From Lactiplantibacillus mudanjiangensis (GTDB taxonomy: Bacteria; Bacillota; Bacilli; Lactobacillales; Lactobacillaceae), in contig NZ_BJDY01000006.1 in assembly GCF_005405385.1 (NCBI RefSeq), positions 62,001 to 126,000 on the forward strand: a stretch of DNA of 64,000 nt. Reading direction: 5' to 3'. Each line of letters starts with the position of its first letter. The stretch's first letter is position 1. A program made the translations under genes and the position numbers. The notes under the pieces are model-generated. The model was not told the DNA's origin, made no database searches, and saw only the letters and a program-made list of their open reading frames with translations. Below are positions 8,301 through 63,866 of this stretch, piece after piece.

Positions 8301-8610
8301 CTGATCAAAAGTGGTTCGACTTGCCACCCGCCGTTCGCCCACCTTGGGTCGGAACGCTGTGAGCGGACCGGAGCCAGTCAGCGATGGCGCCGGCCGTGAA
8401 AATATCGTTATTCTGGGTGTTTTCCCGGGCTTACGATGTGGTCGACTTTTAAGACTAGTGGTTTTAGCTAGGCTTAAAAGCGAGGCGAAAGCCCGCACTT
8501 TGGCTGGAGCCGGTCCCACAGCCGGCAGAGTCACTGGCTGGCGTAGGTGACTCATTTAGCACAGCTCAAGCCCTTATCGTGTCAGTGACTATCACGCTTT
8601 AGTTATTTAA
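8301..8610 (-). repeat. Palindromic repeat copy A (internally deleted)
   Basis: Copy A is in reverse orientation relative to copies B, C, D and F. It matches copy E from GATCAAA to GTAGGTGAC. It lacks a block between two ACCGG strings, where GCGGACCGG joins directly to AGCCAGTCAG; this looks like a short-homology deletion. A degraded terminal inverted repeat (ACGCTTTAGTTATTTAA) overlaps the addA stop codon. It fills the gap between two convergent genes. Open reading frames inside are not credible genes. Confidence 0.85.
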
Positions 8611-11600
8611 CCGCAACTAGTTCATGATGACCGAGTGAATACAAATACTGTTGCGTGACAGGTCGTTGTAACATTGATTGCAACGCGGCCCCGTATAATT
8701 TCACTTGCCCCGCATACTTACCGAGTAAGTCATCGGCATGGGCCACGTGATCTGTCTTGTAATCAAACAGAATTAACGCTTCATCCGTTTGCAAATAGCC
8801 ATCGATAATCCCATGAATGAGAATTTTGCTATTACCATCAGCCTCAAAACCATCAAATAAGGCTTGGGCTGGCAACAATAATGAGAATGGCACTTCACGA
8901 TGAACTTGATCAGGCTGTGCCAAGAGTTGTTGTCCCAACGTACTGTCGTAAAAACTCAAAATTGGCTCAATTTGAATCTGATCACCAATGGCGCTTGTCA
9001 ACACTTGCTTCGCGACTAAATCAGCAATCGTCGCCTGAACGGCCTCAGTCGTCACCGGTTTATGAATATCTAACTGTTCTAAAACCAGATGTGTCGCACT
9101 CCCGATTTCAGCCCCAGTTGGCGCTTGCGTTGTTTGCAAAAATTTTGGCAAAGTTAAGCTATCGGCAACATACCGATTATGCACTCGCGATTGCTTAGTG
9201 CTGACCGTTGGATTTTCATTCATCAATGGTGTGTCCGGGTCTTCAAAGACACGTTTGACTTCTGATACTGATTGATAAGCGGTAGTCGTCGTCGCCACTT
9301 GGGCTGGATAACTAAAGTTTAAAATCCGACTAATCTGTTGTCGCGTCATATCATCAATATCCACGGTAACGTCAGCCTCAACTTGCTCAACTGCACTCTG
9401 ATTAGCAGTAGCTGTCGATTCGGCTGCCGCCGTCTCAATCGTAGTGGCGTCGCCCAGCTCGATCGTTACCCGCGCATCGGCCGTCGTAAACTGCATTTGA
9501 GGTTGGTCGCCATCCCAGTAGTCTTTGAAATCTACATGCCGAATTAAACTCATGCCGACCCAATCCAGTGCATTATTGGCCGCAACACGCAATGTCGCTG
9601 GTAATAATCGTTCCGGCGTACTAAACGTTCGACGCCATTGTTGAGTGGCAGTCTCAATATCCTTAACCGTCCCCACTAGATACAATTGTTGTTCCGCTCG
9701 GGTAATGGCCACATACAGCTTTCGCATTTCTTCCGCGCGTAACTTTTTTCCAGCAACTTGCCGTGCCACTAGTCGTGGTAAGGTTGGATATTTAACGCGT
9801 GTTTCTGGATCTAAATAGGTAATGCCAATCCCGGCTTGTCGGTCTAACAATGCTGATGCATTTAGATCCGTTTGATTGAAGCGTTTATCCAAATCCATGA
9901 TAAAGACAACTGGAAATTCCAACCCTTTACTCCCATGAATCGTCATCACACTGACCGCTTCGGTGCTTGTTTCCGCGACCGCCGAGGCGAGATCTTCATC
10001 CTTTTCTTGCATGCGTTTGATAAATCGGACGAATTGAAATAACCCCTTAAAACTGCCCTCTTCATACGCATGTGCTCGTTCATACAAGGCGTGCAAATTG
10101 GCTTGTCGTTGTGGGCCAGCTGGCATCCCACCAACATAATCCAAGAATCCAGTCCGATCATAGATGCGCCAAATCAATGTTACTAACTGATTACGTCGGG
10201 CTAAATCTCGAAATTCAGTTAATTGAGTCATGAACCGGTCAATCTTATCGTAAACCGCATCACCATAGGCATCATGTGCTTGTCCCGGATAACGTTCATA
10301 GAAATCACGCAAGGCTTGGAAATAATCACTCGTCTTATTCTGAATCCGTAAATAAACGAGTTGATTTTCGTCTAGACCGACCATTGGTGAACGCAAGACC
10401 GCCACCAAAGGAATATCTTGATACGGATTATCAATGATGGTGAGTAACGCCATCATAATCCGAATTTCAGTGGTTTGAAAATAGTTTTGGGCATCATTGA
10501 CAACAATCGGAATATGCAATCGTTTAAAGACATCGACAATCGATAAGTTATGATTACGCGTTGGTACTAGTAATGCCACATCACTGTATCGCAATGGTCG
10601 ATACGTTTGCGTTGCTCGGTCATAAATCGGATGATCTTCCGCTTTTAACGTTAAAATCTTTTGAGCAACCATCATAATACTCCCCAATGCTGGGTCATCG
10701 ATGGCAAAATCAGCTTCATCTGAAGCGTCATCCTCAGTGGCCGCTTCGCCACTTTGATACAGCATCAAGCTCGTCGTTTGTGGCAAGTCACTCGGGTAAT
10801 CTTTAGGTCCATACTTCAAATAAGCCGCCTGATCATAGTCAATCTGACCCACCGGTGCATCCATAATCTGGCTAAAGATTAGGTTAGTTAATTGATCAAC
10901 ATTTTCAACCGACCGAAAATTTTCCGCTAAGACAATGCGATCCCCATGTTCAGGGTTAGCCCCAAAATCTTGGTACTTGTGTAAGAACAACAACGGATCA
11001 GCCAACCGGAATTGATAAATCGACTGCTTCACATCTCCCACCATAAACATGTTGCCAGGTGTTGACTGTGACAATAACTGCAAGATGGTTTCCTGTAAAC
11101 TGTTGATATCTTGGTACTCATCGACCATGACTTCTGAAAATTGCGCTTGTAATTGGGCTAATGCCGCTTGACCACTCTCGTTTTGACTGGTTAAAATTTG
11201 TAAACTCAAATGTTCCAAATCGTTAAAATCAAGAACATGCCGGCGCCGCTTTTCAGCCGCGAAAGCATCTTTGAAGGCTAACGTAGCCTTAACCAGTTCA
11301 GTCACCAAAGCTTCGGCCCCAGTCATGATATCCAAGACTTGTTGCTCATCACTCATAAAATAGTCATCAGCCAGTTTGCTCATCGTCTTTTTGACTTCGG
11401 CCACTTGGGTATTGATGGCTGTCCCCACCATCGTCCGAGTCACGTCATCTTTGTATTTCTTCGCAATCGTCCCAATTTTAAAGTTTTGGCAAACGGCACG
11501 TAAGGCGTTCCAATCCATCGTGGCCACATTGGCTACCAGTTCAGTTAATTCTGCTTGCGCACTTTCCAAATTCTTAATTGTGGCCGGCTTTAACTCATTG

Positions 11601-12352
11601 GCCTCCGCTTGGACTAAGCCTTGTTGAATCGTTGTCAACATATTTTGAAACAAGGGCATGAGCTGTGGCAACACCTGTTGTTGATAGAAGCTTGACGTGG
11701 TCACGTGGTCACCATCAAGATGATAAGTTGCTGGCAATTGTTGCAACCAAGCGACTGGATCAGGCGTTGATTGCGCAAAATCATACAACCGCATGATCAG
11801 TCGACTGAGTCCGTCATCGCTGCGATCATTAGAAAAGTTCGCGGTCAACAGCGCAAAGACTTCGCCATCATCTTCGTACAACTTTTCACGGACCGTATCC
11901 CAGACTTGATCCCGAATCAACAAGCCTTCGGTATTATCCGTCAGTAATCGAAAAACCGGATCAAGATTAATCACGTAATAGTAACGTTGAATCAATCGAT
12001 TACAAAAGGCATCTAATGTACTGATATTAGCGACACCGAGCAGATTTAATTGCCGACGCAATGGTTGTAATTCGGGACTGGCCATTGTGGCTTTAGGATG
12101 AGCCGCTAAAAACGTTGACAACTCAGCATTCAATCGTTTTTCAAGTTTTTGTTTCATATGCTTAGCAGCGAGGTTCGTAAACGTCACCACCAATAACTGA
12201 TCGATATCAGTCCCAGCTTTGATTTTGCGCATGATCCGTTCAATCAAAACCGTGGTTTTGCCAGAACCAGCTGATGCGGACACTAATAAATTATTACCTT
12301 GCTGGTCAATCGCGGCTTGTTGACTAGCTGTATAGGCTGTTTTTTCACTCAT
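8603..12352 (-). CDS. addA: ATP-dependent helicase/nuclease subunit A (AddA/RexA)
   Basis: This is the helicase-nuclease subunit of AddAB (RexAB), which resects double-strand breaks up to Chi sites for RecA loading. The 1249 residues match the family. The Walker A sequence SASAGSGKTTVL lies at about 24-35, followed by UvrD-like motifs DEYQDIN, NFRSVENVD and MTIHGSKGLEFPVVF. The C-terminal RecB nuclease motif LILFDYKTD is intact. The ATG at 12352 overlaps the addB stop by 8 nt (ATGAGTGA); in-frame ATGs at 12361 and 12379 are alternatives, with GGAG and GGGGG nearby. It is co-transcribed with addB. Confidence 0.9.
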   Translation of the reverse strand: MSEKTAYTASQQAAIDQQGNNLLVSASAGSGKTTVLIERIMRKIKAGTDIDQLLVVTFTNLAAKHMKQKLEKRLNAELSTFLAAHPKATMASPELQPLRRQLNLLGVANISTLDAFCNRLIQRYYYVINLDPVFRLLTDNTEGLLIRDQVWDTVREKLYEDDGEVFALLTANFSNDRSDDGLSRLIMRLYDFAQSTPDPVAWLQQLPATYHLDGDHVTTSSFYQQQVLPQLMPLFQNMLTTIQQGLVQAEANELKPATIKNLESAQAELTELVANVATMDWNALRAVCQNFKIGTIAKKYKDDVTRTMVGTAINTQVAEVKKTMSKLADDYFMSDEQQVLDIMTGAEALVTELVKATLAFKDAFAAEKRRRHVLDFNDLEHLSLQILTSQNESGQAALAQLQAQFSEVMVDEYQDINSLQETILQLLSQSTPGNMFMVGDVKQSIYQFRLADPLLFLHKYQDFGANPEHGDRIVLAENFRSVENVDQLTNLIFSQIMDAPVGQIDYDQAAYLKYGPKDYPSDLPQTTSLMLYQSGEAATEDDASDEADFAIDDPALGSIMMVAQKILTLKAEDHPIYDRATQTYRPLRYSDVALLVPTRNHNLSIVDVFKRLHIPIVVNDAQNYFQTTEIRIMMALLTIIDNPYQDIPLVAVLRSPMVGLDENQLVYLRIQNKTSDYFQALRDFYERYPGQAHDAYGDAVYDKIDRFMTQLTEFRDLARRNQLVTLIWRIYDRTGFLDYVGGMPAGPQRQANLHALYERAHAYEEGSFKGLFQFVRFIKRMQEKDEDLASAVAETSTEAVSVMTIHGSKGLEFPVVFIMDLDKRFNQTDLNASALLDRQAGIGITYLDPETRVKYPTLPRLVARQVAGKKLRAEEMRKLYVAITRAEQQLYLVGTVKDIETATQQWRRTFSTPERLLPATLRVAANNALDWVGMSLIRHVDFKDYWDGDQPQMQFTTADARVTIELGDATTIETAAAESTATANQSAVEQVEADVTVDIDDMTRQQISRILNFSYPAQVATTTTAYQSVSEVKRVFEDPDTPLMNENPTVSTKQSRVHNRYVADSLTLPKFLQTTQAPTGAEIGSATHLVLEQLDIHKPVTTEAVQATIADLVAKQVLTSAIGDQIQIEPILSFYDSTLGQQLLAQPDQVHREVPFSLLLPAQALFDGFEADGNSKILIHGIIDGYLQTDEALILFDYKTDHVAHADDLLGKYAGQVKLYGAALQSMLQRPVTQQYLYSLGHHELVAVK

Positions 12353-15300
12353 TTTTCTCATCCCCCAACTCCGTGGCAATCCGATCCAAAACTTCTTGCG
12401 GACTCAACGGTGGTAAATCGCGGTAATTATTTTCTGGTAGCATCGCATCAAATTCCATAATTGCGAGATATGGCGAATATTGTAACGCCGTTTGTTTATC
12501 GTTCAAGCGGATTGGATTCAAGGCCAAGGCCCCAGCGAAAATCGCTTCGGCAGCAGCCACAATCAATTGTCGATTATTAGCCAATAAGGCATCCAATTGC
12601 GTTTCAGTGACCAGTGGTGCGGCTTTGGTACTACTATAAGCGCCATCTGTCTTGCGACTAAATGGATAAATTTTTGAATGTTGATAACCCGTTTTCTTAG
12701 GTAATTCAGTATCTAAATGTTGTAACAGTTGTGGGTCATCTAAAACGACCCCTTTGTATTTATTAGCTTTCAATAAAGCCGCCTCAAAACCAGCCTTGGC
12801 ATCACTCGGCTTGAGCGTTGGATTTTGAATATGCATGTACAATGCTCCGGCCAATTTCACTTTTTCATTCGGATTTTGAACGATTTCGGATTCATTCACC
12901 AAAACGGCATTGAGATAAGTCAACATTTGCATGGCTAAGCCATAGTAGGCCTGCTGAAAATCAAACTTGTGTTGTGAAGACTTGTAATCCACAATTCCCA
13001 AATAGTTTTGGTCAGCAACCTGAATTTGATCTAAGCGATCAATCTTTCCCCGCACATGGACACTATGTTCGGCATCAACTTTGAAATCAAGGGCCTTTAG
13101 TCCATGTTCTTTACCAACATTCCCAAACAAGACTTCGGTTTGACGTGGCGTGGCTTCGGAATGCAAACTCTGATTACGAATAGCATAAGCAATTTGGCGA
13201 ACCGTATTTAATAATTGCCGGCGTAAATAGGCCATCCGATTAGAACTCGATAGAATCGTAAATTGGGGTTGTGCCAAAACGGTTAACGACACCTGATCTA
13301 AAAATTGATCTAAAGTGTCATCGTCCAGCGAAGCCAACGTTAACCCTTGTGCCTGAACGAGTTTAATTAAGCCATCAAGCACCGCATGGAAGAATTCACC
13401 CGTACTTGCTGCTGACAGCTCGAAGACATCTCGTTCACGTAACTTTAGTCCGTACTTTAAAAAGTACGCATATTGATTACGGTAGAACTCTTCTAATTTT
13501 GAAATTGAAGTATAGATCTGTTTGCCATACAATGCTTGCACACTGTCTGACGTTAATGGTGTCGGCACGTTGCGATAACTTAACCCCGCTAGCAGTTGTT
13601 GCGCTAAGGGACCAAAAGTCGGATCTTGACTGAGTTCACGCCGCAACCACACCCAAACTGGGGCCGGTCGTAAGGGCTCACCCACATGATTATGATCTTG
13701 ATTAGCCGTTAACACATCACGATAGACTTGGATCACATGCGTCAAAGTCCGACGTTTGGAACCGACAAACGGTGCAATTTTCGGCTTGGTTGGATCTGGC
13801 GTTGCCAAATACACTAGCGTCTTCAATTGAAAGGCCCGTTGAATTTGGATCACATAACTCGACAAGTTCAATTCAGCTTCTTGACTATCCTTTAACGGCG
13901 CGCTCAAATACAAACGTTCCGTTGCATTTAAGAAAGCCAAATAATTCAGATAGCGTTCATCACCAAGTTGAACGACTGCTGAATCTGCTAAATAATGATC
14001 TCCATCTAACTGATTTAATTCTGGTTGTAACTGGTTCTTATCAGTATCACTCAATAAATCGTTGGTCATGATACGATCGGGCATCACTAAGTCAGTGGCC
14101 CCCATCAGCATCACCACTTTGCGATTTTGACTCTGTTCGCGACCACTTTCAGAAATCGACACTTGATCTAACGTTGATGGAATTTGCGCATATCCAGCGC
14201 CTTCAAATCCAGCCTGGAGTAACGCCAAAAAATCAACAAGTTCAAATGGCTGATCCCCTAACATGGTCACAAAATCATCGAGCATTTCACAGAATGTCTG
14301 CCAGGTTTGTTCCGGTTCACTAGCTGTCGCTAAATCACCGCGTTCAACGGCTTGATCCCGCCATGCCATTAGTTGTGTATCCACACCATTTTTCGTCAAA
14401 AAGGTCACTAATAATGTCGCGGCTGTGCGTCCATCTGAGGCCTTCGAAAGGGCTTTAAAAAATGGTGGCAAGATTTTGGCCACAAAATGATGAATCAAGT
14501 TAATTTTTTCAGTAATCGCCGCATTTTGATCAGTTTCAACCCCAGCATCACCGGCAATCACTTGAAAGTATTGCCAATCTTCTTTTTGCGTCCATCGGCG
14601 GCCACTGTAGCCACTCTTCAAAATAAAGTTTTCGGTTAAATCAACCGCTTGCTGATAAGCTTGACGATTCATTGGGCGCCCGTTCACTTGCGGCAACAAC
14701 AATTCAGTTTTCAATAATCGCATGACATCACGATATTGATAATGATTTTCTTGAACCGCAAAGAGCGCGCTGATTAATTCTACTAACGGGTGGTCAGCCA
14801 TAGATCGGCGTAAATCCAAGAAATACGGGATTTCCATCGCGTGAAAAATTGGCGCAATCATTGTGTCATAACTCGTTAAGTGACGCGTCACCACAAGAAA
14901 ATCACGATAGTGGTATCCTTCATTCGCCACCAACTGACGAATTTGACGAGCCACTTGCGCGATTTCAGTCTGCCGCGTATCAGTGCGAAAAACGTGTAAG
15001 GCCTTTTGGTTATCGTCAATTGCGCTTGGTTTACCAGCACCACGCCAAACATCATCAAGCGCCGCTAATGCTGGCGCAACCCGAACTTGTTGCGCAAAAA
15101 CATCTGGCAACTGCTCGATATGACGGACCTGAGCATACTGACTCAAGCGATAATACAACCGGCCCGTTTGATAAAATAACGTGCCATTCAATGGCTTCTT
15201 TTTTGGTGCTTCGGTTAAAATCAAACTCATTGTCACCTTGGCACCACGCTCTAACAGCGTTGTCACAATCGCCTGTTCTTGCGTTGATAACTGTGAGAAC

Positions 15301-16026: not shown

Positions 16027-16049
16027 TAATTGAGTTATGCTAAATTTAT

Positions 16050-16292
16050 CACCTACGCCAGTCAGCGATTCTGCCGGTTGGATTACAGGTGTTAATCAAG
16101 TTTGTAACCACTGACATAACCGAGAGTGAGCTCACATTGAGCCCAGCCGTGGGAGCTCTTAGCGATTTATCGCTTAGAGCTTGGCGCTTTTGAAACACGG
16201 GTTGGGTGGTTCAAAACGACGGTTCAGACCGCTTTTTGGCTGAACCGGTCCACCCACCGCGTTCCGGCTTAATGTGGGCGAACGGTAGGTGG
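16050..16292 (+). repeat. Palindromic repeat copy B (left-arm deletion)
   Basis: This copy keeps the CACCTAC start and GTAGGTG end and the right-arm hairpins (AGCTCT...AGAGCT; CGGTTCAG...CTGAACCG). It has lost most of the left arm between CTGCCGG and the central CGGTTA region. It is the only copy placed between co-directional genes: after the pyrE stop and before addB. Confidence 0.85.
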
Positions 16293-16333
16293 CAAGTTAC
16301 GCCCCACTTAATGTAATGACACTCACTAGAAAA

Positions 16334-25845: not shown

Positions 25846-25926
25846 AAAAAAAGAGTCTCCCGTTTTTCCTGCGAAAAGCGTGGGAGACTCCTAATTAACC
25901 GTTCCCCTTGTTAGCCTCACAGGACT
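25846..25926 (-). promoter_or_regulatory. PyrR attenuator in the pyr leader
   Basis: The transcript holds AGTCCTGTGAGGCT (25913-25926), an exact ARUCCNGNGAGGYU PyrR box. It precedes the terminator GGAGTCTCCC...GGGAGACTC with a seven-T run (25846-25890). Confidence 0.92.
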
Positions 25927-25955
25927 AAGTTAAAGGTGCTTGTCTGATTGCAATC

Positions 25956-27801: not shown

Positions 27802-27823
27802 ATTCCCATTCAAATACGAGTTA

Positions 27824-27930
27824 TTGCCTATATAATGTCATGATATGGATGACGAGTTTCTACCCAGCGCCGTAAACGCTGGACTATAAGCAAACGAGGC
27901 CATCCCGTTTGCCCGGGGTGGCCTTTTTTT
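27824..27930 (+). promoter_or_regulatory. Purine riboswitch, guanine class, with terminator
   Basis: The three-way-junction aptamer (27824-27893) has P1 TTGC..TATA / TATA..GCAA, the junction segments TATAAT, GATATGG and GTTTCTACC, loop CCGTAAA, and the 3' GGACTAT. The base pairing with ligand is C (GAC, not GAU), so guanine, hypoxanthine or xanthine is expected rather than adenine. It is followed by GAGGCCA...TGGCC with a seven-T run (27896-27930). Ligand binding should turn the downstream permease off. Confidence 0.93.
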
Positions 27931-29455: not shown

Positions 29456-30760
29456 ATTTTAGAGCAATTATTTCATTTGCGGGAAAACCGCACATCAGTC
29501 CGGCGTGAACTTATCGGTGGACTCACAACCTTTTTAGCCATGTCTTATATTCTGGCCGTAAACCCCGAACTATTGGGTAGTGCTGGAATGAGTAAAACCG
29601 CCGTCTTCACGGCGACCGTTTTAGCTGCGATTGTGGGCTGTTTGCTAATGGGCCTTATCGCCAACTTCCCAGTTGCCTTAGCGCCGGGGATGGGCCTCAA
29701 TGCCTTCTTCACTTATACCGTCGTCCAAGAATGGCATATTCCGTGGCAAACCGCTTTAGCGGGCGTCTTTGTTGCTGGGATCTTATTCATTTTATTGACG
29801 CTATCAAAACTACGAGATAAATTAATCAACTTGATTCCAAGTGCGTTGAAATATGCGGTTTCAGCTGGGATTGGGCTATTTATCGCCTTTTCTGGGTTAC
29901 AGACCTCTGGAATCATCGTGGCAAACAAATCAAACGCCGTGGCGTTAGGTAACTTACACAGTCCAACTGTGTTACTCGCAATCTTCGGGATCATCGTTGG
30001 CGTGATGTTAGTGACCGCTAACGTGACTGGCGGCATCTTCTGGGGCATGTTCATCACTGCCGTTGTCGGCATGATCTTCCAAGTCATCCCGTTACCAACC
30101 GGAATTGTCAGTGGCGTGCCTAGTGTGCAACCAATCTTTGGTGCTGCCGTAACGCATTTGGGCCAAATCAATTCCTTCCAAATGATTATTGTGATTCTGA
30201 CTTTCTTTATCATCGGCCTCTTTGATACATCGGGCACCTTAGTTGGGGTTGCCACCGAAGCCGGCATGGTTAATCATAAAACTGGTGAAGTTAAAGGCGT
30301 TGGGAAAGCCTTATTCAGTGGCGCGGTTGCCACAACCTTAGGTGCCATTTTTGGGACCTCACCAACTACCGCTTACGTGGAATCAACTTCAGGTGTGGCT
30401 GTTGGGGCCCGGACCGGGTTATCCTCCGTTGTCGTAGCCATTTTATTTGCAATTGCCGCCTTCTTCTCACCAATTTTAACGGTGATTACTTCGGCCGTCA
30501 CAGCTTCGGCGTTAATCATCGTTGGGATTTTAATGTTATCAAACGTACAATATATTGATTGGACGAAATTTGAAATCGCCGTGCCAGCCTTCTTCACCAT
30601 GATTATGATGCTGTTGACTTACAGTATTTCGGAAGGATTAGCCGTTGGATTTATCTTCTACCCTATTACCATGAGTGTTAAAGGTCGTTGGCGTGAAGTC
30701 AATGCCCTCATGTGGACCATGATGGTCGTCTTTATACTCTACTTTGCTTTTGTGGCTTAG
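29456..30760 (+). CDS. AzgA-type purine permease (guanine/hypoxanthine or adenine)
   Basis: The protein belongs to the NCS2 AzgA/PbuG/PbuO subgroup: RRELIGGLTTFLAMSYILAVNPELLGSAG, then APGMGLNAFFTYTVV, and IFGTSPTTAYVESTSGVAVGARTGL, with 12 or more membrane segments. It imports guanine and hypoxanthine, or adenine. The start appears to be ATT at 29456: GGAG is 9 nt upstream and the reading gives MLEQLFHLREN, the natural family N-terminus. The first canonical alternative, TTG at 29477, has no RBS and would remove seven conserved-looking residues. It has no riboswitch of its own. Confidence 0.85.
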   Translation: MLEQLFHLRENRTSVRRELIGGLTTFLAMSYILAVNPELLGSAGMSKTAVFTATVLAAIVGCLLMGLIANFPVALAPGMGLNAFFTYTVVQEWHIPWQTALAGVFVAGILFILLTLSKLRDKLINLIPSALKYAVSAGIGLFIAFSGLQTSGIIVANKSNAVALGNLHSPTVLLAIFGIIVGVMLVTANVTGGIFWGMFITAVVGMIFQVIPLPTGIVSGVPSVQPIFGAAVTHLGQINSFQMIIVILTFFIIGLFDTSGTLVGVATEAGMVNHKTGEVKGVGKALFSGAVATTLGAIFGTSPTTAYVESTSGVAVGARTGLSSVVVAILFAIAAFFSPILTVITSAVTASALIIVGILMLSNVQYIDWTKFEIAVPAFFTMIMMLLTYSISEGLAVGFIFYPITMSVKGRWREVNALMWTMMVVFILYFAFVA

Positions 30761-31317
30761 TTAAACTAAAGTTTGAAAGTTAAATGTATTGGTCGAAACC
30801 TTAGCAACATTGGCTTAAGTTGGATTAAATTTTTCACCTACGCCAACCAGCGATTCTACCGGCTGTGGGGACCGGTTCCAGCCAAAGTGCGGGCTTCCAC
30901 CTCGCTTTTGAGCCTAGCCAAAACACTAGTCTCAAAAGTCGTCCATATCGTAAAGTCCGGGGAAATCATCCGGACTAACGATATTTTCACGGCCGGCGCC
31001 ATCACTGGCTGACTCCGGTTATCACGTGGATGCTAATCAATTAGTGATCACTATTATAACCGAGAGTGAGCCCACATTGAGCCCAGCCGTGGGAGGCTCT
31101 AAGCGATAAATCGCTTAGAGCCTGGCGCTTTTGAAACACGGGCTTGGTGGTTCAAAACGACGGTTCAGACCGCTTTTTGGCTGAACCGGTCCGCCCACAG
31201 CGTTCCGGCTTAATGTGGGCAAACGGTAGGTGGCAAGTACGACTAGTTTTGATCGATGAATGCTTATCATATCAACGATTATTGCTAAAACCTAGCTTTC
31301 AACCTTTAGTTAGTTAA
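30761..31317 (+). repeat. Palindromic repeat copy C (full length, with terminal inverted repeats)
   Basis: This full 557-bp copy is bounded by CTAAAGTTTGAAAG (left) and CTTTCAACCTTTAG (right), inverted with 13 of 14 matches. The core 30835-31233 runs from CACCTAC to GTAGGTG. Left arm: hairpins around CTTTTGAG/CTCAAAAG and AGTCCGG/CCGGACT, enclosed by CAGCCAG-type ends. Centre: CGGTTAT/ATAACCG. Right arm: GCCCACATT/AATGTGGGC enclosing a perfect 14-bp hairpin (AGGCTCTAAGCGAT) and CGGTTCAG/CTGAACCG. It starts directly after the permease stop codon. Confidence 0.9.
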
Positions 31318-31321
31318 ACCT

Positions 31322-44518: not shown

Positions 44519-45814
44519 TTAGCTGTTGCTAGAGGCGCCAGAAACTTCATCAACATCAGGCTTAGCTGGTTTTTCAGGTTCTGCAGTTGGTTCTGCATCC
44601 GCTGAAGCACCAGAAACTTCATCAACTTCTGGTTTAGCAGGCTTTTCTGCTGCCTTGCTTCTCGATGAAGCACCAGATACAGCATCGGTTTCAGCATCAG
44701 GATCTTTAACTAACATTTGACCCGTGTGTTCCAAGTAGTAATTAACCATTGGCATAATATCTAAGACTAACTCGTTAATCCCTTTATAGTCGCCATCAGC
44801 ATCATGCATCGCCTTATAGTAATGCATGACATACTTGTCAGCACCCATACCAGGAACTGGCAAACGGAACATATCCGTTTTACCAGTCCGCAACATATGA
44901 ATCACTTGTTTAACATGTGGAATGGCTGGTTTAGGATGGCAATCAGCCATTGGGTTCCCGGCTTGCGCTGGGGTCCGGGCAGCCAACATATCTTTAGCTT
45001 CCAAGAAATGGTTGTAATAGATAAATTGGTTATTGGCATCGGCGTAAGTTAATTCCATTGGCATTGAATTCAAGAAATAATTCAATTGGTTAACGGTAAG
45101 CAACCCACGATCTAACTTAACGTAGTCGTCACCTTCAGCCGCATGCGTCTTTTCAGCGGCCTTTTCAACCCAATCAGCCGCATGCATATCAACGCCTTCA
45201 ACGGTCGTTTCAACTTTGCCATGTGATTCCAAGTCTTCAGCTTCCCAACCGGGATCTTCCGGCTTGTTCATGTCGTTAATCACGGTCACAAACTTAAGGA
45301 ATTTTTCAAGCGTCGTCTTTAAGAAGGACACAGTGCGTTCGTCTTTGAGATTTTGTTGATCATCAAACGCCGTCTTCACGTCGCCTAATAAGAATTCGTT
45401 ACCAGGCATGACCACTGCGTCAACACCCGGTGATTCCAAGATTTGGCGCAAGTTTAACTGTGCTCGAGAGGAGCCTTGATCATAATAAGACGCACCCACG
45501 ATCATCACTGGCTTCCCCGCCATTGGATGAATCTTGAAAGATAACCATTCGATGACACTCTTCAAACTAGCCGTAATCGTATGGTTATGTTCAGGGGTCG
45601 CAATAATGATCCCATCAGCATGTTCGATCTTCCGTTTCAAATATTGAACAGCATCGCCTTCAGTTTGATCATCACTTTGATTGAACAATGGGACATCATT
45701 AATATCCAAAAGTTCGATATCGGCTTCATCACCAAAGTGACTCGCAATATACTTTAATAACATCCGATTGTATGACTTATCAGCCACCGAACCGGCAATT
45801 CCAACTAACTTCAT
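44519..45814 (-). CDS. Flavin reductase-PAS fusion with three C-terminal flavinylation-type motifs
   Basis: The protein has 431 residues. Residues 1-180 are an NADPH-dependent FMN reductase domain (LVGIAGSVADKSYNRMLLKYI, IIATPEHNHTITASLKSVIEWLS). Residues about 225-365 resemble the PAS-like domain of DUF438 proteins (MPMELTYADANNQFIYYNHFLEA, DCHPKPAIPHVKQVIHMLRTGK, YKAMHDADGDYKGINELVLDI). The tail, about 375-431, is Ala/Pro/Glu/Lys-rich and contains DAVSGAS (377-383), DEVSGAS (398-404) and DEVSGAS (422-428). These fit the D-x-x-[ST]-G-A-[ST] site at which ApbE attaches FMN. No signal peptide, so it is cytosolic. Inference: a reductase carrying covalent FMN on a flexible arm. It follows a paralogous reductase by 18 nt. 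Confidence 0.8.
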   Translation of the reverse strand: MKLVGIAGSVADKSYNRMLLKYIASHFGDEADIELLDINDVPLFNQSDDQTEGDAVQYLKRKIEHADGIIIATPEHNHTITASLKSVIEWLSFKIHPMAGKPVMIVGASYYDQGSSRAQLNLRQILESPGVDAVVMPGNEFLLGDVKTAFDDQQNLKDERTVSFLKTTLEKFLKFVTVINDMNKPEDPGWEAEDLESHGKVETTVEGVDMHAADWVEKAAEKTHAAEGDDYVKLDRGLLTVNQLNYFLNSMPMELTYADANNQFIYYNHFLEAKDMLAARTPAQAGNPMADCHPKPAIPHVKQVIHMLRTGKTDMFRLPVPGMGADKYVMHYYKAMHDADGDYKGINELVLDIMPMVNYYLEHTGQMLVKDPDAETDAVSGASSRSKAAEKPAKPEVDEVSGASADAEPTAEPEKPAKPDVDEVSGASSNS

Positions 45815-50041: not shown

Positions 50042-50543
50042 TCAAAGGTTGAAAGCTGATAATTGTTCTTGGCTAAATTAGCCACCTACGCCAGCCAGTA
50101 ATTCCGCCGACTGTGGGGACCGGCTCCAGCCAAAGAACGGGCTTCCGCCTCGCTTTTAAGCCTAGCCCAAACCGCTAGTCTCAAAAGGCGTCCACATCGT
50201 AAGCCCGGAAAAATCATCCGGACTTACGATGTTTACACGGCCGGCGCCATCACTGACTGGCTCCGGTTACATTGCGACTACCAATCAATCGCGTAGTCAC
50301 CATAACCGAGAGTGAGTCCACATTGAGCCCAGCCGTGGAGGCTCTTAGCGATTTATCGCTTAAAGCTCGGCGCTTTTGAAACGCGGGCTTGGCGGTTCAA
50401 AACGACGGTTCAGACAGCTTTTTGGCTGAACCGGTCCGTCCACAGCGTTCCGGCTCAAGATGGGCGAACGGTAGGTGGCAAATAATCCTACCAATACTTG
50501 GCATTACCAGCGATCACTACTTAAAATAGCTTTTACGCTTTAG
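50042..50543 (+). repeat. Palindromic repeat copy D (full length)
   Basis: Core 50082-50479 runs from CACCTAC to GTAGGTG with both arms present. Outer ends AAAGGTTGAAAGCT and AGCTTTTACGCTTT match as inverted repeats at 11 of 14. The apex hairpin is GACTAC...GTAGTC, different from copy C. It fills the gap between convergent hydrolase and asparaginase genes. Confidence 0.88.
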
Positions 50544-56004: not shown

Positions 56005-56797
56005 ATTACGTACTACCACCCATTACTTGTTTACTGAGCAATTGCGGTTGCTCGGCTGGACTTATGTCTACTTGATCGCGATTTTCTTAATTTTGCCGTT
56101 CATATTTGATCTAATATCCGGTAATTTAAAAGATTTTTCGTTGACTGGGTCGATTGCAACCTTAGGATTAGGCGCCGTCTTTGGCCTATTCTTGATGATT
56201 ACGATGTCTCTCACTTACGATCATTTTAAATTGTTCATTCAAAATGGGATTTCCCGGAAAACCTTCTGGCGTGCGCGCATATTGAGCATGTTAGCAATGG
56301 GTCTTGTGGGGACCATCATTACCGCCATTTATGATTATGCAATTGTGGTGCCGCTTCGTTTTGACAGTATCGCCAAATTTTTCAACAATGGCAATTTTTA
56401 CACACTATACATTCATTACTTTGGCAATAACCTGGCCATTAATATTTTTGCCAGTTTGATTATGCTGCTTCTGGCCTATATTCTTTTAGGAACAACCGGA
56501 TTAGCTTTTGGTAGTATCTTTAGCTTGTTATCAAAAACAACTCGCCGATTGGTTTTGATTTTAGGTCCAATCCTAGGTATTTTCTTCTTATTCTTCATTG
56601 CTAGTAATTCGAATGGTCACAGTTCTGACAGTTTCATTTGGCTTCTCGATCTGTTTAAATTCTTAGTCGGTGATTTCAACAACGCCGCTGCTGGTCATCT
56701 AAATCCATTGATGCCAATGCTCACTATGCTAGTTGGTAGTAGCATCATGGCAGGAATTGCTTACTTCTTCAATCAGAAACTTAAGGTGAAATCTTAG
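55994..56797 (+). CDS. ABC transporter permease, six-segment
   Basis: The 267-residue protein has six hydrophobic segments and no large extracellular domain, matching ABC-2-like permeases paired with YtrB-type ATPases. GGAGGT lies 5 nt ahead of the ATG at 55994, inside the end of the ATPase gene. It is the last gene of the probable six-gene operon; repeat copy E follows directly. Confidence 0.82.
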   Translation: MPTKLRTTTHYLFTEQLRLLGWTYVYLIAIFLILPFIFDLISGNLKDFSLTGSIATLGLGAVFGLFLMITMSLTYDHFKLFIQNGISRKTFWRARILSMLAMGLVGTIITAIYDYAIVVPLRFDSIAKFFNNGNFYTLYIHYFGNNLAINIFASLIMLLLAYILLGTTGLAFGSIFSLLSKTTRRLVLILGPILGIFFLFFIASNSNGHSSDSFIWLLDLFKFLVGDFNNAAAGHLNPLMPMLTMLVGSSIMAGIAYFFNQKLKVKS

Positions 56798-56799
56798 CA

Positions 56800-57288
56800 T
56801 TAACTAAAGGTTGAAAGCTAGGTTTTAGCAATAATCGTTGATATGATAAGCATTCATCGATCAAAGGTAGTCGTACTTGCCACCTACCGTTCGCCCACCT
56901 TGAGCCGGAATGCTTTGGGCGGACCGGTTCAGCCAAAACGTCAGTCTCTAAGCGATAAATCGCTAAGAGACTCCCACGGCTGGGCTCAATGTGAGCTCAC
57001 TCTCGGTTATAATAGTGATCCCTAATTAACTAGCATCCACATGATAACCGGAGTCAGCCAGTGATGGCGCCGGCCGTGAAAATATCGTAAAGTCTGGGTG
57101 TTTTCCCCGGACTTTACGATATGGACGACTTTCGAGACTAGTGGTTTTGACTAGGCTCAAAAGCGAGGTGGAAGCCTGCACTTTGGCTGAAACCGGTCCC
57201 CACAGCCGGCAGAATCGCTGGCTGGCGTAGGTGACAATTTAATCCAACTTAAGTCAATGTTGGTAAGGTTTCAACCTTTAGGCATTAA
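56800..57288 (-). repeat. Palindromic repeat copy E (reverse orientation)
   Basis: It is bounded by CTAAAGGTTGAAAG (56804-56817) and an inverted TTTCAACCTTTAG (57269-57281). The core 56879-57233 aligns with the reverse complement of copy C even in the 60-70 bp flanks. It lacks the two hairpins between the CTGAACCG region and the AGTCTCT hairpin in the right arm. It fills a convergent intergenic gap. Confidence 0.88.
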
Positions 57289-57824: not shown

Positions 57825-57999
57825 GTGCGCCACACCCTTTCCATCTACTACTAGTTTACCATTTATCCAACATGAATGCGTTCTCAAATGCAGTTCACCG
57901 CCAACAAAATTAGTTTTACACAACATTTACACAAACGGTATCGAGTCTTTACATCAACCGCCTACAATGAAGTTATTCCATTGAGAGAAGGCGTTGTCG

Positions 58000-58230: not shown

Positions 58231-58304
58231 TTATTCCTCCCGCTCCAACTGAGTTTGTGCTAGGATTAAGCTAATTAATCTGAACACCGACGCGGGGGAA
58301 CTTT

Positions 58305-58724: not shown

Positions 58725-58776
58725 TAAAAATGTGGAATGACTCGCTAACTTAGCTGGTCATCCCACATTTTTATTT
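58724..58776. terminator. Bidirectional terminator
   Basis: AATAAAAATGTGG-ATGAC / GTCAT-CCACATTTTTATT between convergent genes. Confidence 0.85.
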
Positions 58777-59248: not shown

Positions 59249-59432
59249 CTGATCCCCCTCTTTCTGCCTGCACCAAATTTAGCACAATTTGATCATTTTC
59301 GAGGCCATAAATTAAAAAACAACCTCGAAAATCGGGCATTTATCGTCAATGTAATTTCGGTAAGTTAGTAAACTTGAACTGTATGTTAAAATAAACGGCG
59401 ACTAGACTAATCATTTGAGGAGCAGACTGACC

Positions 59433-59756
59433 ATGGACTTAACCACTACTGAAACCGATTATTTATTAGATTTATTAACCACTAAATTATTTGAACTGCT
59501 TAGCCGAGTCACCCGCTGGCAAACGCACAGCTTATCACAGGCTCAATATGATCAACAGGTCGAAGAAACCTTGCAACCAAACTTAACCATTTTACAAGGG
59601 TTACTCGAAAAACTCAGTGCTGACCAGCCGGATGCACCGCAAGTGATCGCTTTACAACAAGGTCTTGATAAACTACAGACAGCGACAACCTATCAATTAA
59701 CAACGACTCAATTGGCTCAGGCTAACGCGCATCGTTTTAATCGGCATCATCGCTAG
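59433..59756 (+). CDS. Small hypothetical, helical protein
   Basis: The 107-residue protein is Gln/Leu/Thr-rich, predicted almost entirely helical, with possible coiled-coil heptads in ILQGLLEKLSADQPDAPQVIALQQGLDKLQTATTYQ. GAGGAG lies 10 nt before the ATG. No family is recognised. Confidence 0.6.
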   Translation: MDLTTTETDYLLDLLTTKLFELLSRVTRWQTHSLSQAQYDQQVEETLQPNLTILQGLLEKLSADQPDAPQVIALQQGLDKLQTATTYQLTTTQLAQANAHRFNRHHR

Positions 59757-59874
59757 CCAAGCGGATTTATTCACTCTTAACAAAAAATTCAAATTTCAAT
59801 CACGGGATTGCTATTTTTAGCCGTTACAATGAATGCATAAACTTAAAAGCTTCGCGACGAAAGAAGGAGGGCTT

Positions 59875-60057
59875 ATGTTTCTAATTGTATATTGTGCATT
59901 GGCAATTGCGGTGTTTTTCTGGATATTTGGCTTCACGACCGCTGCCATCATTGTCGCCCTATTGACGCTAGCCCTAATCGGGTATGCCTCCATTCGCCGA
60001 CAAGTCGCCCGTAAACGCTTATTAAAACAACGAACTGCGACTAAAGGTCGAGGTTAA
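59875..60057 (+). CDS. Small two-segment membrane protein
   Basis: The 60-residue protein has two hydrophobic segments (about 1-17 and 19-38) and a strongly basic C-terminus (RRQVARKRLLKQRTATKGRG). GGAGGGCTT precedes the ATG. It may be a membrane-anchored peptide with a cytosolic tail. Confidence 0.6.
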   Translation: MFLIVYCALAIAVFFWIFGFTTAAIIVALLTLALIGYASIRRQVARKRLLKQRTATKGRG

Positions 60058-60072
60058 TTTTGAAAACAATCC

Positions 60073-60128
60073 TAAAAAAGACGTTGCTAATCACTGGGCT
60101 TATCCACCAATGATTAACAACGTCATTT
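60073..60128. terminator. Bidirectional terminator
   Basis: AAAAAGACGTTG..TAATCA / TGATTA.CAACGTCATTTTT with a 17-nt loop between convergent genes. Confidence 0.8.
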
Positions 60129-60132
60129 TTGA

Positions 60133-61329
60133 TTACTTATTTAATTGTGCCAAACAACTGATAATATTTTGCACCGCTTGATGCACATATTTTGGATCAG
60201 TCGCTAAGTTCAGGCGCACAAACCCCTGATCATTCTTACTGAACCATTCACCGAAGTCTACTGCTAGCCCACATTTATCTTGAATAAATTCGCGAGTCGT
60301 TGCAGGATCCAGATAAGCCCGTAAGTCTAACCAGATCAAGTAAGTCCCTTGTAGATCAGCCACTACAATTTTAGAAGTTTTTTCGCTAAATTCAGTTTGC
60401 AAATAATGATAATTATCGCGAATAACCGCTAAAATTTGATCTAACCAGGCACCGCCATGTTCATAGGCAGCTTGTCCAGCTGTTTGCCCCAACACATTAA
60501 CTTCTGTCTGATTATATCGTTGCATAAACGCATCGTACGTCGCACGCAAGTCGGCGTTCGGGATAATGACGTGTGAGTTTAACAAACAAGCTACGTTAAA
60601 GGTTTTTGATGGTGAATTAACCACAATAACTTGATCTTGAAAACGGCCATCCGCTACGGTTAATGCCGAAATAAACGGATGATTTTCAGGATCAATTTCG
60701 ATGTCTTGATGAATTTCATCAGAGACAACTAACACCCCATATTGTTCACATAACGCTAAAATCTTAGTTTCTTCTTCAGCTGTCCAGATGCGGCCAACTG
60801 GATTATGTGGTGAACATTGGATAAATAACCGAACTTCATTGGCTTTAATTTTAGCCTCGATATCAGCAAAATCCATCGTATAATGACCGTCATCATTGAT
60901 GAGTTCAGACGTCACCAGTTGCCGGTGATTATCTTGAATCGCATCAAAGAAAGGATAATACACGGGTGTTAAAATCATCACGGCATCACCTGGTTGCGTA
61001 TATGCATTAACGATCGCATATAGTGAGTTCACGACCCCCGTGCCAAAGCGCACCCAATCTTTTTGTAACGTCAATTGATGACGTTGCTGTTCCCAGTTAA
61101 TAAAAGCATCATAATAGCTATCTGGTGTAAACGAATAGCCATAAATACCGTGGGCCACGCGTTCAGTTAGCGCCGTCGTCACTTGTTCCGGTACTTTAAA
61201 TTCCATATCCGCCACCCACATTGGTAACAAATCAGGATTGCCGTAGCGCACCCCTAACGCATCCCACTTAAGTGAATTCGTATTTAGTCGATTCGTTGCG
61301 TATGTTTTAATAAATGTTGCTTGATCCAT
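60133..61329 (-). CDS. MalY/PatB-type pyridoxal-phosphate C-S lyase
   Basis: The 398-residue fold-type I PLP enzyme has LLPMWVADMEFKVPEQV, the early motif of MalY/PatB. It also has CSPHNPVGRIW, VVSDEIHQDIE and the PLP lysine motif VNSPSKTFNVACL. Family members cleave cystathionine to homocysteine or release H2S and thiols from cysteine conjugates. The T-box leader supports sulfur amino-acid metabolism. AAGGGG lies 8 nt before the ATG at 61329. Confidence 0.87.
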   Translation of the reverse strand: MDQATFIKTYATNRLNTNSLKWDALGVRYGNPDLLPMWVADMEFKVPEQVTTALTERVAHGIYGYSFTPDSYYDAFINWEQQRHQLTLQKDWVRFGTGVVNSLYAIVNAYTQPGDAVMILTPVYYPFFDAIQDNHRQLVTSELINDDGHYTMDFADIEAKIKANEVRLFIQCSPHNPVGRIWTAEEETKILALCEQYGVLVVSDEIHQDIEIDPENHPFISALTVADGRFQDQVIVVNSPSKTFNVACLLNSHVIIPNADLRATYDAFMQRYNQTEVNVLGQTAGQAAYEHGGAWLDQILAVIRDNYHYLQTEFSEKTSKIVVADLQGTYLIWLDLRAYLDPATTREFIQDKCGLAVDFGEWFSKNDQGFVRLNLATDPKYVHQAVQNIISCLAQLNK

Positions 61330-61357
61330 GTTAAAAACCCCTTCCAAATTAGCCCAC

Positions 61358-61609
61358 AAAAAAACTTCGTCCTTAAGTTACTAAGGACGAAGTTTGCACT
61401 CCGAGGTACCACCTATATTCACAGCTTTTGCTGCCTCACACTTGCTAGTTGTCTAACAAAGCATCACATTAACGGTGATTAATCCGAATTAACAGCAGTC
61501 TCCTACCATTAATTTACTCCGAGTTCATCTTCACTAGAATCATCCCATCAATTTCCACCAACCATTGACTCGCTGTCAGACCCATCTAGTTACTCTTCTC
61601 ATCAACGTA
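61358..61609 (-). promoter_or_regulatory. T-box riboswitch upstream of the C-S lyase
   Basis: The leader has AGAGTAACTAG and GAAGATGAAC in stem I and the T-box TAGGTGGTACCTCGGAG (61398-61414). The terminator is AACTTCGTCCTTA...TAAGGACGAAGTT with seven T (61358-61396). The specifier is probably ATG (in TTAATGGTAGG), which would make it tRNA-Met responsive; this needs a fold. Confidence 0.88.
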
Positions 61610-61631
61610 TCATTTTTAAATTGATTCTAAC

Positions 61632-62168
61632 TTACAACGCTTGATTGGAATTGTCAACTGCTGTCGTCATCGGAAATTGTGGTGTTGTCGGCACGTCATA
61701 AACGGCGATTTCTTGATCAGCTACAGGGAAAGCCCCCGTCTTCAAGTATCGCTTCGCTTGCATAACTAACGGCGAACTATTGGACCAGTTTAATTGATCC
61801 AATGGCACCCGGGCAGCCCCATCCGATACCGCTGCCGTAAAGGCTGGCCGATTCGTCAATAACTTACCACCCACTGGTTCAAGTAAATAAAACGTATTAA
61901 TCATCGCTTCACGCGGTTGATCAGCTGTCAGGGCTGGAAATGTAAAACGAATAGTACCTAATTGCTTAGCGATGGCCGTTTGTAAACCGGTCTGAATGGC
62001 CGTAATCTGACTGACAGTCGCACTCAACGTTTGGTCTACGGTGAGCGGAGCCGTTGCCAAATCATAACGATTAGTGAAGCGGCCTGTCAAATTTTTAATC
62101 ACGATTAAACTGGTCTCATCGCCAACGATGCCACATACATAGAGGGGATTAATTTGTTCGACTATCAT
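61632..62168 (-). CDS. Possible degenerate NUDIX-fold protein
   Basis: The 178-residue protein starts IVEQINPLYVCGIVGDETSLIVIKNLTGRF. The order of strands and the helix TVSQITAIQTGLQTAIAKQLG resemble a NUDIX domain, but the catalytic R-E-x2-E-E-x-G-x-U residues are absent, so hydrolase activity is unlikely. The assignment is tentative; binding or regulation is possible. The -35 of the following T-box transcript may lie in its last codons. AAGGAAG precedes the ATG. Confidence 0.55.
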   Translation of the reverse strand: MIVEQINPLYVCGIVGDETSLIVIKNLTGRFTNRYDLATAPLTVDQTLSATVSQITAIQTGLQTAIAKQLGTIRFTFPALTADQPREAMINTFYLLEPVGGKLLTNRPAFTAAVSDGAARVPLDQLNWSNSSPLVMQAKRYLKTGAFPVADQEIAVYDVPTTPQFPMTTAVDNSNQAL

Positions 62169-62340
62169 CGGTTCGCTTCCTTCATTAATTCTCAAGTAGT
62201 TACAATATAATTAGATATTATATAATTAATGATAGAATATCACAATTATCGCAACTACTTAATTTTACTACTTTATACGGTGAACTAAAACCAAAAAATA
62301 GCAACTGATATAAACATTTAATAACTTGTAATATTTGAGT

Positions 62341-62369
62341 AAAAAAAACAGTCCAATTACTTGAACTGC
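62341..62369 (-). terminator. Terminator of the two-segment membrane-protein gene
   Basis: Minus strand CAGTTCAA / TTGGACTG (one mismatch) followed by eight T. Confidence 0.7.
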
Positions 62370-62381
62370 TTCAATCACTTA

Positions 62382-63017
62382 CTATTCAGTTGTCAGATCA
62401 GTCGTATTGATAAAGGACTGCGCCGGTACCCGAATCAACCAACGTGTCATCGCCTGATGGTCAACATGCACACCCAAACCATTCAAAAAATTAGGCTTAT
62501 AAGTCGCCGTCATTTTAGCAACATAGGCCTTTGTATGCGACCGATCCAATTTAGCTAACTTCGTTTGTGACCACGGAATTCCCGCATCAGCCACTTTAGC
62601 TTGTTTTAAACTTGTAATTACTGTCGCCTTATTGCTGGAGACGGTATACTTTGCACCCTTGACCCAATAATTGTAAATATGGACAGGTTTGTTCGCACTA
62701 CCACGATCAACGGCCACATAATAAGAACCAGTACTGCCAACACGCATGACTAACGGTTGATAGTCATAACTGATGCTAACGGTGTCTGTTGACAAGTCTA
62801 CTCGCTGGCCGAATGTTACAAAGAACATCCCCGCTAGTAAGCCAATACTTACCACCAATTCACCCACTGTAATCCATAGACTTGACCATTCAAAAGTGTG
62901 CTTCCGCTCCACGATCATTTTAATACGCCGTACCCGGATATTATGAAAGACCCACACAACGAGCGCCAGTACCATAATCCAGGCAATGATTCCAATCCAA
63001 TTCCATGCAGAAGTCAT
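62382..63017 (-). CDS. Two-segment membrane protein with extracytoplasmic domain
   Basis: The 211-residue protein has transmembrane segments at about 5-24 and 48-68. They are joined by a basic cytosolic loop (NIRVRRIKMIVERKHTFEW) and followed by an extracytoplasmic beta-rich domain of about 140 residues. The family appears common in lactobacilli but has no function I can name. AAAGGG lies 10 nt before the ATG at 63017; a longer in-frame reading to 63113 lacks an RBS. Confidence 0.68.
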   Translation of the reverse strand: MTSAWNWIGIIAWIMVLALVVWVFHNIRVRRIKMIVERKHTFEWSSLWITVGELVVSIGLLAGMFFVTFGQRVDLSTDTVSISYDYQPLVMRVGSTGSYYVAVDRGSANKPVHIYNYWVKGAKYTVSSNKATVITSLKQAKVADAGIPWSQTKLAKLDRSHTKAYVAKMTATYKPNFLNGLGVHVDHQAMTRWLIRVPAQSFINTTDLTTE

Positions 63018-63214
63018 CAATTGCCAACCCTTTCCCTGATTTCCTTTATTATCATGCTCTAATTGTAAATAATTCGCTTCCAAATAACAAGTAATGCTCC
63101 CAAACTTTAACATTTCTATGGCGTTATATTGTGAAAAAAGTCACGGTTAAGCTGCAAATGTAATCGAATTCATGGTAGAATAATGGTATTAACTTGTAGA
63201 AAGAAGGAGTACCG

Positions 63215-63529
63215 ATGATCGCAGCATTAATTTATTGGGTGGTCGTAGTTGGCTTAATCGTCTGGGGTGTCTGGATGGCGATTCTTTCCGCTTACTGGGC
63301 TGGTCAAAAACAAAACGGCAATTTATTTTTTATTGCAATTATGAATACCTTAGGGTTAATCGCCGGCTTGTTGGTTTGGTGGGTTTTCAACAACCAAAAC
63401 TGGCAATATTACTGGTTATCTAGTACCGTTCAAACAACCAATTTATTAGGCATCGTCTTAATTTGTTACGTTGTCTTGATTGTCATTGAATTCATTCAAG
63501 GCCGAGGCATCAAACCTGCTAAAGCTTAA
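63215..63529 (+). CDS. Small three-segment membrane protein
   Basis: The 104-residue protein has hydrophobic segments at about 3-24, 37-58 and 72-93 and a basic C-terminus. AAGGAG precedes the ATG. No family is recognised. It is monocistronic with a terminator. Confidence 0.65.
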   Translation: MIAALIYWVVVVGLIVWGVWMAILSAYWAGQKQNGNLFFIAIMNTLGLIAGLLVWWVFNNQNWQYYWLSSTVQTTNLLGIVLICYVVLIVIEFIQGRGIKPAKA

Positions 63530-63539
63530 ATTGACTCAC

Positions 63540-63568
63540 AAAAAGCGTGTCCATCGGGCACGCTTTTT
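63540..63568 (+). terminator. Terminator of the small membrane-protein gene
   Basis: AAAAGCGTG.CC / GG.CACGCTTTTT hairpin just after the stop. Confidence 0.88.
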
Positions 63569-63573
63569 GTTTC

Positions 63574-63866
63574 GTTTAAATTGTCACCTACGTCAGCCAG
63601 TGATTCTGCCGGCTGTGGGGACCGGTTCCAGCCAAAAATCGGGCTTTCACCTCGCTTTTAAGCCTAGCCAAAACCACTAGTCTCAAAAGTCGTCCACATC
63701 GTAAAGTCCGGCAAGACCAGCCGGACTAACGATGTTGTCACGGCCGGCGCCATCACTGGCTGACTCCGGTTATATTGCAAATATTAATCATTCTCGTCAT
63801 CATCATAACTGATAGTGAATTCACATTGAGTCCAGTTGTGGACCGTTCTTTGCAATTTATCGCTTA
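63574..63866 (+). repeat. Palindromic repeat copy F (right arm decayed)
   Basis: The CACCTAC start and the complete left arm (CTTTTAAG/CTCAAAAG and AGTCCGG/CCGGACT hairpins) are present up to CCGGTTAT. The right arm fades after TCACATTGAGTCCAG and ends in TTTATCGCTTA, where it overlaps the last codons and stop of the minus-strand gene. Confidence 0.82.

Follow-up and report, generated by a model that had tools for sequence, protein, structure and literature searches.

REP, BIME and REPIN sequences of bacteria are extragenic, form inverted doublets and are enriched at the 3' ends of genes, EFAR repeats of the Lactobacillales lie close to stop codons, and group IIC introns are structured RNAs inserted directly downstream of intrinsic terminators. 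Bacterial miniature inverted-repeat transposable elements (MITEs), such as RUP, Correia/NEMIS and ERIC, are described in the available parts of PMC2229807 and PMC10969869 as intergenic and almost non-coding, with terminal inverted repeats (TIRs), target-site duplications (TSDs), many copies, stable RNA folds, and a transposase that acts in trans or is not known. The bcr1 and other repeats of B. cereus are 100-400 bp long, with up to 130 integral bcr1 copies per genome, and show traits of mobile elements (PMC6542083, available part). Here we analyze a repeat family found in a stretch of 64,000 nucleotides from Lactiplantibacillus mudanjiangensis (contig NZ_BJDY01000006.1, positions 62,001 to 126,000; the window), whose full-length member is an element of about 545 bp. 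Mobility of the element is supported by TIRs, TSDs of 7-9 bp and element-free orthologous gene pairs in congeners, and in about half of the copies in the host genome the insertion point follows the U-tract of a hairpin terminator by 8-11 nt. This fixed distance to intrinsic terminators, absent from the initial annotation of the window, is to us the most telling feature of the family. A mobile element striking terminators in this manner would follow a rule for safe landing that is open to direct testing.

The full element consists of a TIR, an m2 module in antisense orientation, a short variable center, an m1 module in sense orientation and the second TIR. The TIRs are 14 bp long, and m1 and m2, which face outward, are related but diverged versions of a single structured module of about 200 nt. 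Sequence comparison within the window demonstrated that the six sites A-F (Table 1) are one homologous DNA set, as the initial annotation had proposed, and the core model described below has eight matches there, two opposed modules in each of copies C and D and one in each of A, B, E, and F, from which module parts have been lost. The opposed modules in C and D agree with the earlier observation that the two arms are inverted copies of each other, and the inverted CTAAAGGTTGAAAG was recovered at both ends of copies C and E, each copy having a single mismatch in one of its two ends. The CACCTAC...GTAGGTG cores ascribed to all six copies are only partly borne out: CACCTAC is indeed in excess in the window (ten occurrences versus 4.1 expected, with ten reached in none of 100 shuffles), but the core is incomplete in copy A, where the left motif is absent, and in copy F, where the right one is absent. 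The fold of copy E has an energy of -206 kcal/mol, compared to -140 +/- 6 kcal/mol in 100 shuffles (z -10.9). In line with the claim that no plausible protein is encoded, the only open reading frame (ORF) of at least 80 aa within a window copy (86 aa, copy A) has no match in Pfam.

Outward-facing module pairs recur outside the host genus, with starts 277-300 nt apart in six Levilactobacillus loci (L073, L079, L086, L098, L110, and L113); another arrangement, with two modules in the same direction, was observed at locus L099. Internally deleted copies are common in the host genome. The 55 copies with both ends, which come from stretches picked as best hits or TIR sites, have a median length of 522 bp, and their longest stop-free run is 122 codons. 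At three loci (L115, L127, and L135) the outer flank of the TIR ends resembles, by eye, the sequence of another element, which suggests nested insertions.

The description as a six-copy family holds for the window, but the genome total is far higher. The core model R1, with 83 positions, was built from 39 aligned modules, and all 150 candidates scored with it, of 1,093, matched in the host genome (3.29 Mb), giving at least 150 places. These matches are on eight contigs, with no pair closer than 1 kb, and are therefore separate places. The exact 14-mer of the element end has 71 matches in the same genome and its reversed control has none, and a search with the DNA of copy E, in which 40 of 230 candidates were scored, yielded at least 43 matches at 75% identity or more, of which 40 exceed 300 bp. 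With at least 150 copies of roughly 500 bp, the family is estimated to occupy some 2% of the genome, in a genus used in food.

Beyond the host, a search of the Lactobacillaceae with R1, of the kind that had been proposed, found core-model matches in 75 of 397 genomes and in 10 of 40 genera (E <=0.001, strict filters, scoring limited to 11 candidates in each genome). In an order-wide sample, 9 of 395 genomes matched at E <=1e-5, all of them from the same family. Carriers among the matches listed include Levilactobacillus brevis, hammesii, tongjiangensis and others, Lactiplantibacillus fabifermentans, herbarum, and xiangfangensis, and Companilactobacillus huachuanensis, and the element ends are common to several genera, the Levilactobacillus copies terminating in CTAAAGGTTGCAAG or CTAAAGGTTGAAAG. 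Nine listed genomes of the host genus (2.6-3.7 Mb) had no core-model match among the 11 best candidates scored in each. Plasmids yielded no match to copy E or to an L. brevis copy, and phages no match to the latter. A pattern match in Actibacterium (L095), having no core-model match at E <=1e-6, was taken as chance.

Site counts are based on 95 located copies, one of which (L209) may be counted twice. In 55 of them the 14-bp TIR is present at both ends, with up to four mismatches per end tolerated, so that a few ends may be chance. Exact TSDs flank 28 of these 55 copies (7 bp in 14 copies, 8 bp in 12, and 9 bp in two); at even composition, a 7-bp duplication is expected by chance in one of 16,384 copies. 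The gene pair flanking copy C has element-free gaps of 106, 104, 72, and 69 bp in the congeners G001, G002, G008, and G010, respectively, each containing, by eye, a hairpin and a T-tract. In G009 and G011 the gaps between these genes are 1,051 and 1,406 bp, and in G003-G006 and G012 the second flanking gene was not found within the examined stretch. In the relative G007 (G007:C6:57482-60771, L234) the gap is 869 bp and contains a module match, a second hit, and possibly an independent one, in this region between the two genes.

The copies are enriched in convergent gaps: 44 of the 95 are in convergent gaps, 44 in co-directional and seven in divergent ones, and none is inside a gene, compared to 22 convergent, 70 co-directional, and 50 divergent element-free gaps in the same stretches (genes being approximated by ORFs of at least 100 aa, and copies not flanked by ORFs on both sides being left out). 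Among the co-directional cases, 37 of 42 copies are closer to the 3' end of the upstream gene, two "far" ones being left out. A T5 tract directed at the element occurs within 30 nt in 33 of the 55 copies with both ends and in the opposite sense in four, the background expectation being 19.6%. When a hairpin of -7 kcal/mol or better was required together with a T4 tract ending outside the element, 8-11 nt from its end, 29 of the 55 copies passed, as opposed to 395 of 25,615 element-free intergenic positions (1.5%), or 3.0% in convergent gaps; relative to the latter background, the binomial p is about 1e-29, assuming independence. The mode of the U-tract distance is exactly 10 nt, at which 20 of the 86 T4 tracts within 40 nt are situated, leaving 2-3 nt between the U-tract and a TSD of 7-8 bp. 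The terminator faces the m1 side in 16 copies and the m2 side in 13. In other named genomes, T5 was seen within 30 nt at only 4 of 26 ends and A5 at none of 26. This sign is weak, and the claim of terminator targeting is thus limited to the host genome.

The second major feature of the element is the fold of its module. A three-helix structure, drawn by hand on alignment A3 (150 of 152 matches, 138 distinct rows), has 92.1% standard pairs and double changes at 20 of 24 pairs. The covariation of the module core is 0.423, compared to at most 0.117 in slid controls, and none of 500 shuffles was as high. Of this structure, R1, to which A3 was fitted, already held helix 2 and the four inner pairs of helix 3 but neither helix 1 nor the six outer pairs of helix 3. 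The module has a conserved loop and a hairpin with a bulged base, and helix 3 of the host m1 consensus contains, by eye, an internal purine loop. There are 187 G-U cells and 32 A-C cells, compared to 322 and 203 expected under independence, and since a cruciform would give equal numbers, this excess indicates a constraint on one strand. It points to a single-stranded fold, RNA or single-stranded DNA (ssDNA).

The earlier statement that the repeat could not be tied to a named family holds for Rfam. The only three gathering-score matches of Rfam 15 in the window, to T-box, purine, and PyrR elements, are not on the copies, and a search of seven loci at E <=5 produced on or beside the modules only sub-threshold matches, none of them credible (for example, Chlorobi-1 with 16.5 of 50 bits at L010, and cyano_het_sRNA with 30.7 of 35.7 bits beside the L048 module). 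The module is thus a strongly covarying fold without a gathering-score match in Rfam, present in ten genera of the sample. The initial annotation had offered a MITE-like element or a structured RNA family; both are supported at once, the former by TIRs, TSDs, and empty sites and the latter by covariation.

The fate of the fold in individual copies was followed in 79 distinct m1 cores (helix 2 with extension, 15 pairs) and 64 m2 cores (18 pairs), counting cells, that is, copies and not events. In m1, one-sided changes kept the pair in 72 cells and broke it in 15, and double changes kept it in 13 and broke it in one; in m2, double changes kept 22 pairs and broke two. Private changes are equally dense in stems and elsewhere (0.40 versus 0.37 per column in m1, and 0.42 versus 0.43 in m2), and they broke 7 of 10 pairs in m1 and 5 of 7 in m2. 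For both modules together, non-private changes give 123 cells with the pair kept and 43 with it broken; for private changes the counts are five and 12. The fold is thus better preserved in older variants than in new ones, a pattern to be expected under constraint on source copies and decay of inserted ones.

Combining these data, we consider it probable that the family is a MITE-like, non-autonomous element, mobilized in trans and targeting terminators, whose fold is kept for propagation; which enzyme moves the element, and what the module does, are inferred. A DDE-type transposase supplied in trans would cut at the TIRs and could be guided to terminators either by the DNA of the hairpin and T-tract or by a paused or terminating RNA polymerase. 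Guided in this way, the element would come to lie in 3' flanks, where it would do no harm. The module, folded as a single strand of RNA or ssDNA, may be required for propagation, for example as a platform binding the mobilizing protein, and copies would decay neutrally after insertion. For site recognition we favor two readings, namely, the hairpin and T-tract as DNA, and recruitment by the terminating polymerase. A bolder version, in which transposition finds intrinsic terminators, perhaps through the polymerase during termination or through the nascent hairpin, and the structured RNA of the element is a working part of the process, is offered as speculation that we would not expect to hold; no description of such RNA-assisted, terminator-directed DNA transposition was found in the searched literature, as far as its text was available.

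Several observations weigh against this interpretation. Exact TSDs of 6-10 bp are absent from 27 of the 55 copies, and at 26 of the 55 no hairpin terminator stands 8-11 nt away. Two pairs contribute 90 of the 187 G-U cells, and without these two most wobble-rich pairs the ratio is 97:32. One-sided changes in m2 disrupt pairing in more cells (37) than they preserve it in (21), and the argument for neutral decay stands on 17 private stem changes, which are small numbers. No promoter-like (sigma-70-like) site was seen in copy C and its flanks. Finally, the searches considered next did not reveal any autonomous element, or any transposase, carrying these TIRs, so that the enzyme and the mechanism are putative.

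A transposase gene of the family would be expected to be flanked by CTAAAGGTTGNAAG. An autonomous element sharing the terminal repeats, which the initial annotation suggested looking for, did not emerge from 20 stretches around TIRs. In 1.28 Mb of locus sequence there are eleven TIR pairs 0.7-4 kb apart, the longest of 3.5 kb (L096), and among the nine ORFs of at least 120 aa between them seven belong to host-type Pfam families, two have no match, and none encodes a transposase. The longest region (L096:96-3613, Levilactobacillus cerevisiae), bounded by a TIR-like pair with three mismatches in all, contains a CAP-family, an ArsC-family, and one Pfam-less ORF and was rejected as a transposon core. 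No exact TIR pair 1-4 kb apart occurs in four genomes of 1-5 contigs. Derivation from IS256, ISL3, or ISLre2 was rejected too, as none of these transposases gave a match in the host genome (PF00872, PF01610, and PF06782), and a TIR pair surrounds the gene in none of 60 IS256/ISL3 loci from other genomes. Either the family is moved by an enzyme of another type, or it is inactive here now, or its partner was missed. As a separate observation, a perfect TIR pair of element size in the relative G237 (L293:2893-3491) adjoins an ISL3-type transposase gene without enclosing it.

Other explanations of the same data were considered. The module might be an independently acting small RNA, regulatory or serving as a guide for a nuclease or transposase, with the TIR element as its vehicle. 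The strand-specific wobble asymmetry and the conserved loop and hairpin are compatible with such a role, and the usual outward-facing pair places one module in sense orientation regardless of which side is transcribed; but given the absence of a sigma-70-like promoter in copy C and its flanks, and of a partner gene in our searches, we consider this possible and yet unlikely. It is improbable that a cruciform or ssDNA hairpin is recognized as DNA, as REPs are by RAYT transposases: despite the nested palindromes, the bulged-base hairpin with its conserved loop and the resemblance to REPINs, which are inverted doublets, a double-stranded cruciform predicts equal G-U and A-C cells, in conflict with the observed 187:32, a ratio with which ssDNA of one strand would still be compatible, and TIRs together with TSDs of 7-9 bp are at odds with HUH enzymes.

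The enrichment in convergent gaps and near the 3' ends of genes, the very stable fold and the conserved core structure could also mean that the element serves the host as a bidirectional terminator, mRNA stabilizer, or insulator between convergent genes, selected at each site. This is quite improbable, as 29 of the 55 copies already adjoin a terminator-like hairpin with a U-tract, private mutations are equally dense in and outside stems and break 12 of 17 pairs, the copy C site is element-free in four congeners, and the nine listed congeners have no core-model match among the 11 best candidates of each; TIRs and TSDs are left unexplained as well. Survival rather than targeting, with other insertions purged and those in gene 3' flanks remaining, would account for the lack of intragenic copies among the 95 and for the depletion of divergent gaps. 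However, purging predicts a broad spread over 3' flanks and not a peak at 10 nt (20 of 86 T4 tracts), nor does the 3.0% convergent background approach 29 of 55 copies, making this explanation highly improbable. A recent local duplication confined to the window, suggested by six copies inside 56 kb and named in the initial annotation as an outcome that would undo its proposal, is rejected in view of the 150 separate core matches on eight contigs, the median divergence of 11% between copies in the m1 core, and the matches in 75 of 397 genomes of the family.

Table 1. Copies of the element in the window, their module cores, and target-site duplications
Feature	Positions	Strand	Remarks
Copy A	8303..8572	+	internally deleted, ends decayed; m1 module core 8436-8522 (+)
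Copy B	16030..16297	-	partial; m2 module core 16178-16260 (+)
Copy C	30766..31309	-	full, 544 bp; m1 core 30862-30948 (-), m2 core 31119-31201 (+), outward-facing
Copy C, left target duplication	30757..30765		TTAGTTAAA
Copy C, right target duplication	31310..31318		TTAGTTAAA; hairpin with A/T tracts starts a few bases further right
Copy D	50042..50543	-	502 bp, ends decayed; m1 core 50110-50197 (-), m2 core 50364-50446 (+)
Copy E	56804..57281	+	478 bp, both ends kept; m2 core internally deleted; m1 core 57119-57206 (+)
Copy E, left target duplication	56797..56803		GCATTAA
Copy E, right target duplication	57282..57288		GCATTAA; adjoins terminator-like hairpin
Copy F	63571..63866	-	truncated; m1 core 63612-63699 (-)

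At two further window copies, a terminator-like hairpin with a U-tract adjoins the left side of copy D, and copy F is abutted by a hairpin with a T-tract that follows the left gene (by eye). The window also contains three RNA elements with Rfam gathering scores that are ordinary for this group of bacteria, namely, a T-box leader at 61380-61614 (-), a purine riboswitch at 27808-27906 (+), and a PyrR binding site at 25846-25940 (-). Two 44-nt direct repeats, 72 nt apart and 84% identical, are situated within an ORF at 44532-44647. In the relative G035, a 436-bp direct repeat with 71% identity (L060:438-871 and 1049-1482) was observed near a module.

No description of the family was found in the searched literature, PMC3942029 and PMC9208149 included, in the text available from these sources, subscription papers and ISfinder being outside this search; within the same limits, insertion of a TIR element at a fixed spacing from terminators was not found described. 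Among the systems that resemble the element in one respect or another, group IIC introns were rejected, as there is no group II match in Rfam in the window or, at E <=5, in the seven loci, and no ORF of reverse transcriptase size; in contrast to these introns, the element has TIRs and TSDs. REPs are 20-40 bp long and mostly end in GTAG or CGTC, according to the available part of PMC3733652, whereas the present modules are of about 200 nt and belong to an element that has TIRs and TSDs. Where the window copies have GTAG, the aligned L. brevis copies mostly have GTAA. By module length and end tag, then, the element is not a REP, BIME or REPIN. The EFAR repeats of Enterococcus, named in the available part of the same paper, are likewise a Lactobacillales repeat and were set beside the element by description, not by sequence or structure. 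The CIR elements of Caulobacter and Brucella, also compared by description and not by sequence, similarly have an RNA fold with two long arms and a linker, but no TIR and an unclear TSD (PMC2229807, available part). The bcr1 repeats are similar in size, copy number, mobility traits, and the lack of a named enzyme; their mobility is tied to a TTTAT motif, and the available part of PMC6542083 does not mention an inverted module doublet or terminator spacing.

With its TIRs, TSDs, and short length without a transposase gene, the element behaves as a MITE, although no partner was found, and, judging by the available parts of the papers cited above for MITEs, it resembles them in being non-coding or almost so and intergenic, in TIRs, TSDs, copy number, and fold, and in a transposase that would be supplied in trans. 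It differs from them in three respects: its length of about 545 bp, compared to about 100-200 bp (PMC2229807, available part); its organization as a doublet of a conserved module of about 200 nt, the core of which is present in 10 genera; and the position of about half of its copies in the host genome at a fixed spacing from terminators.

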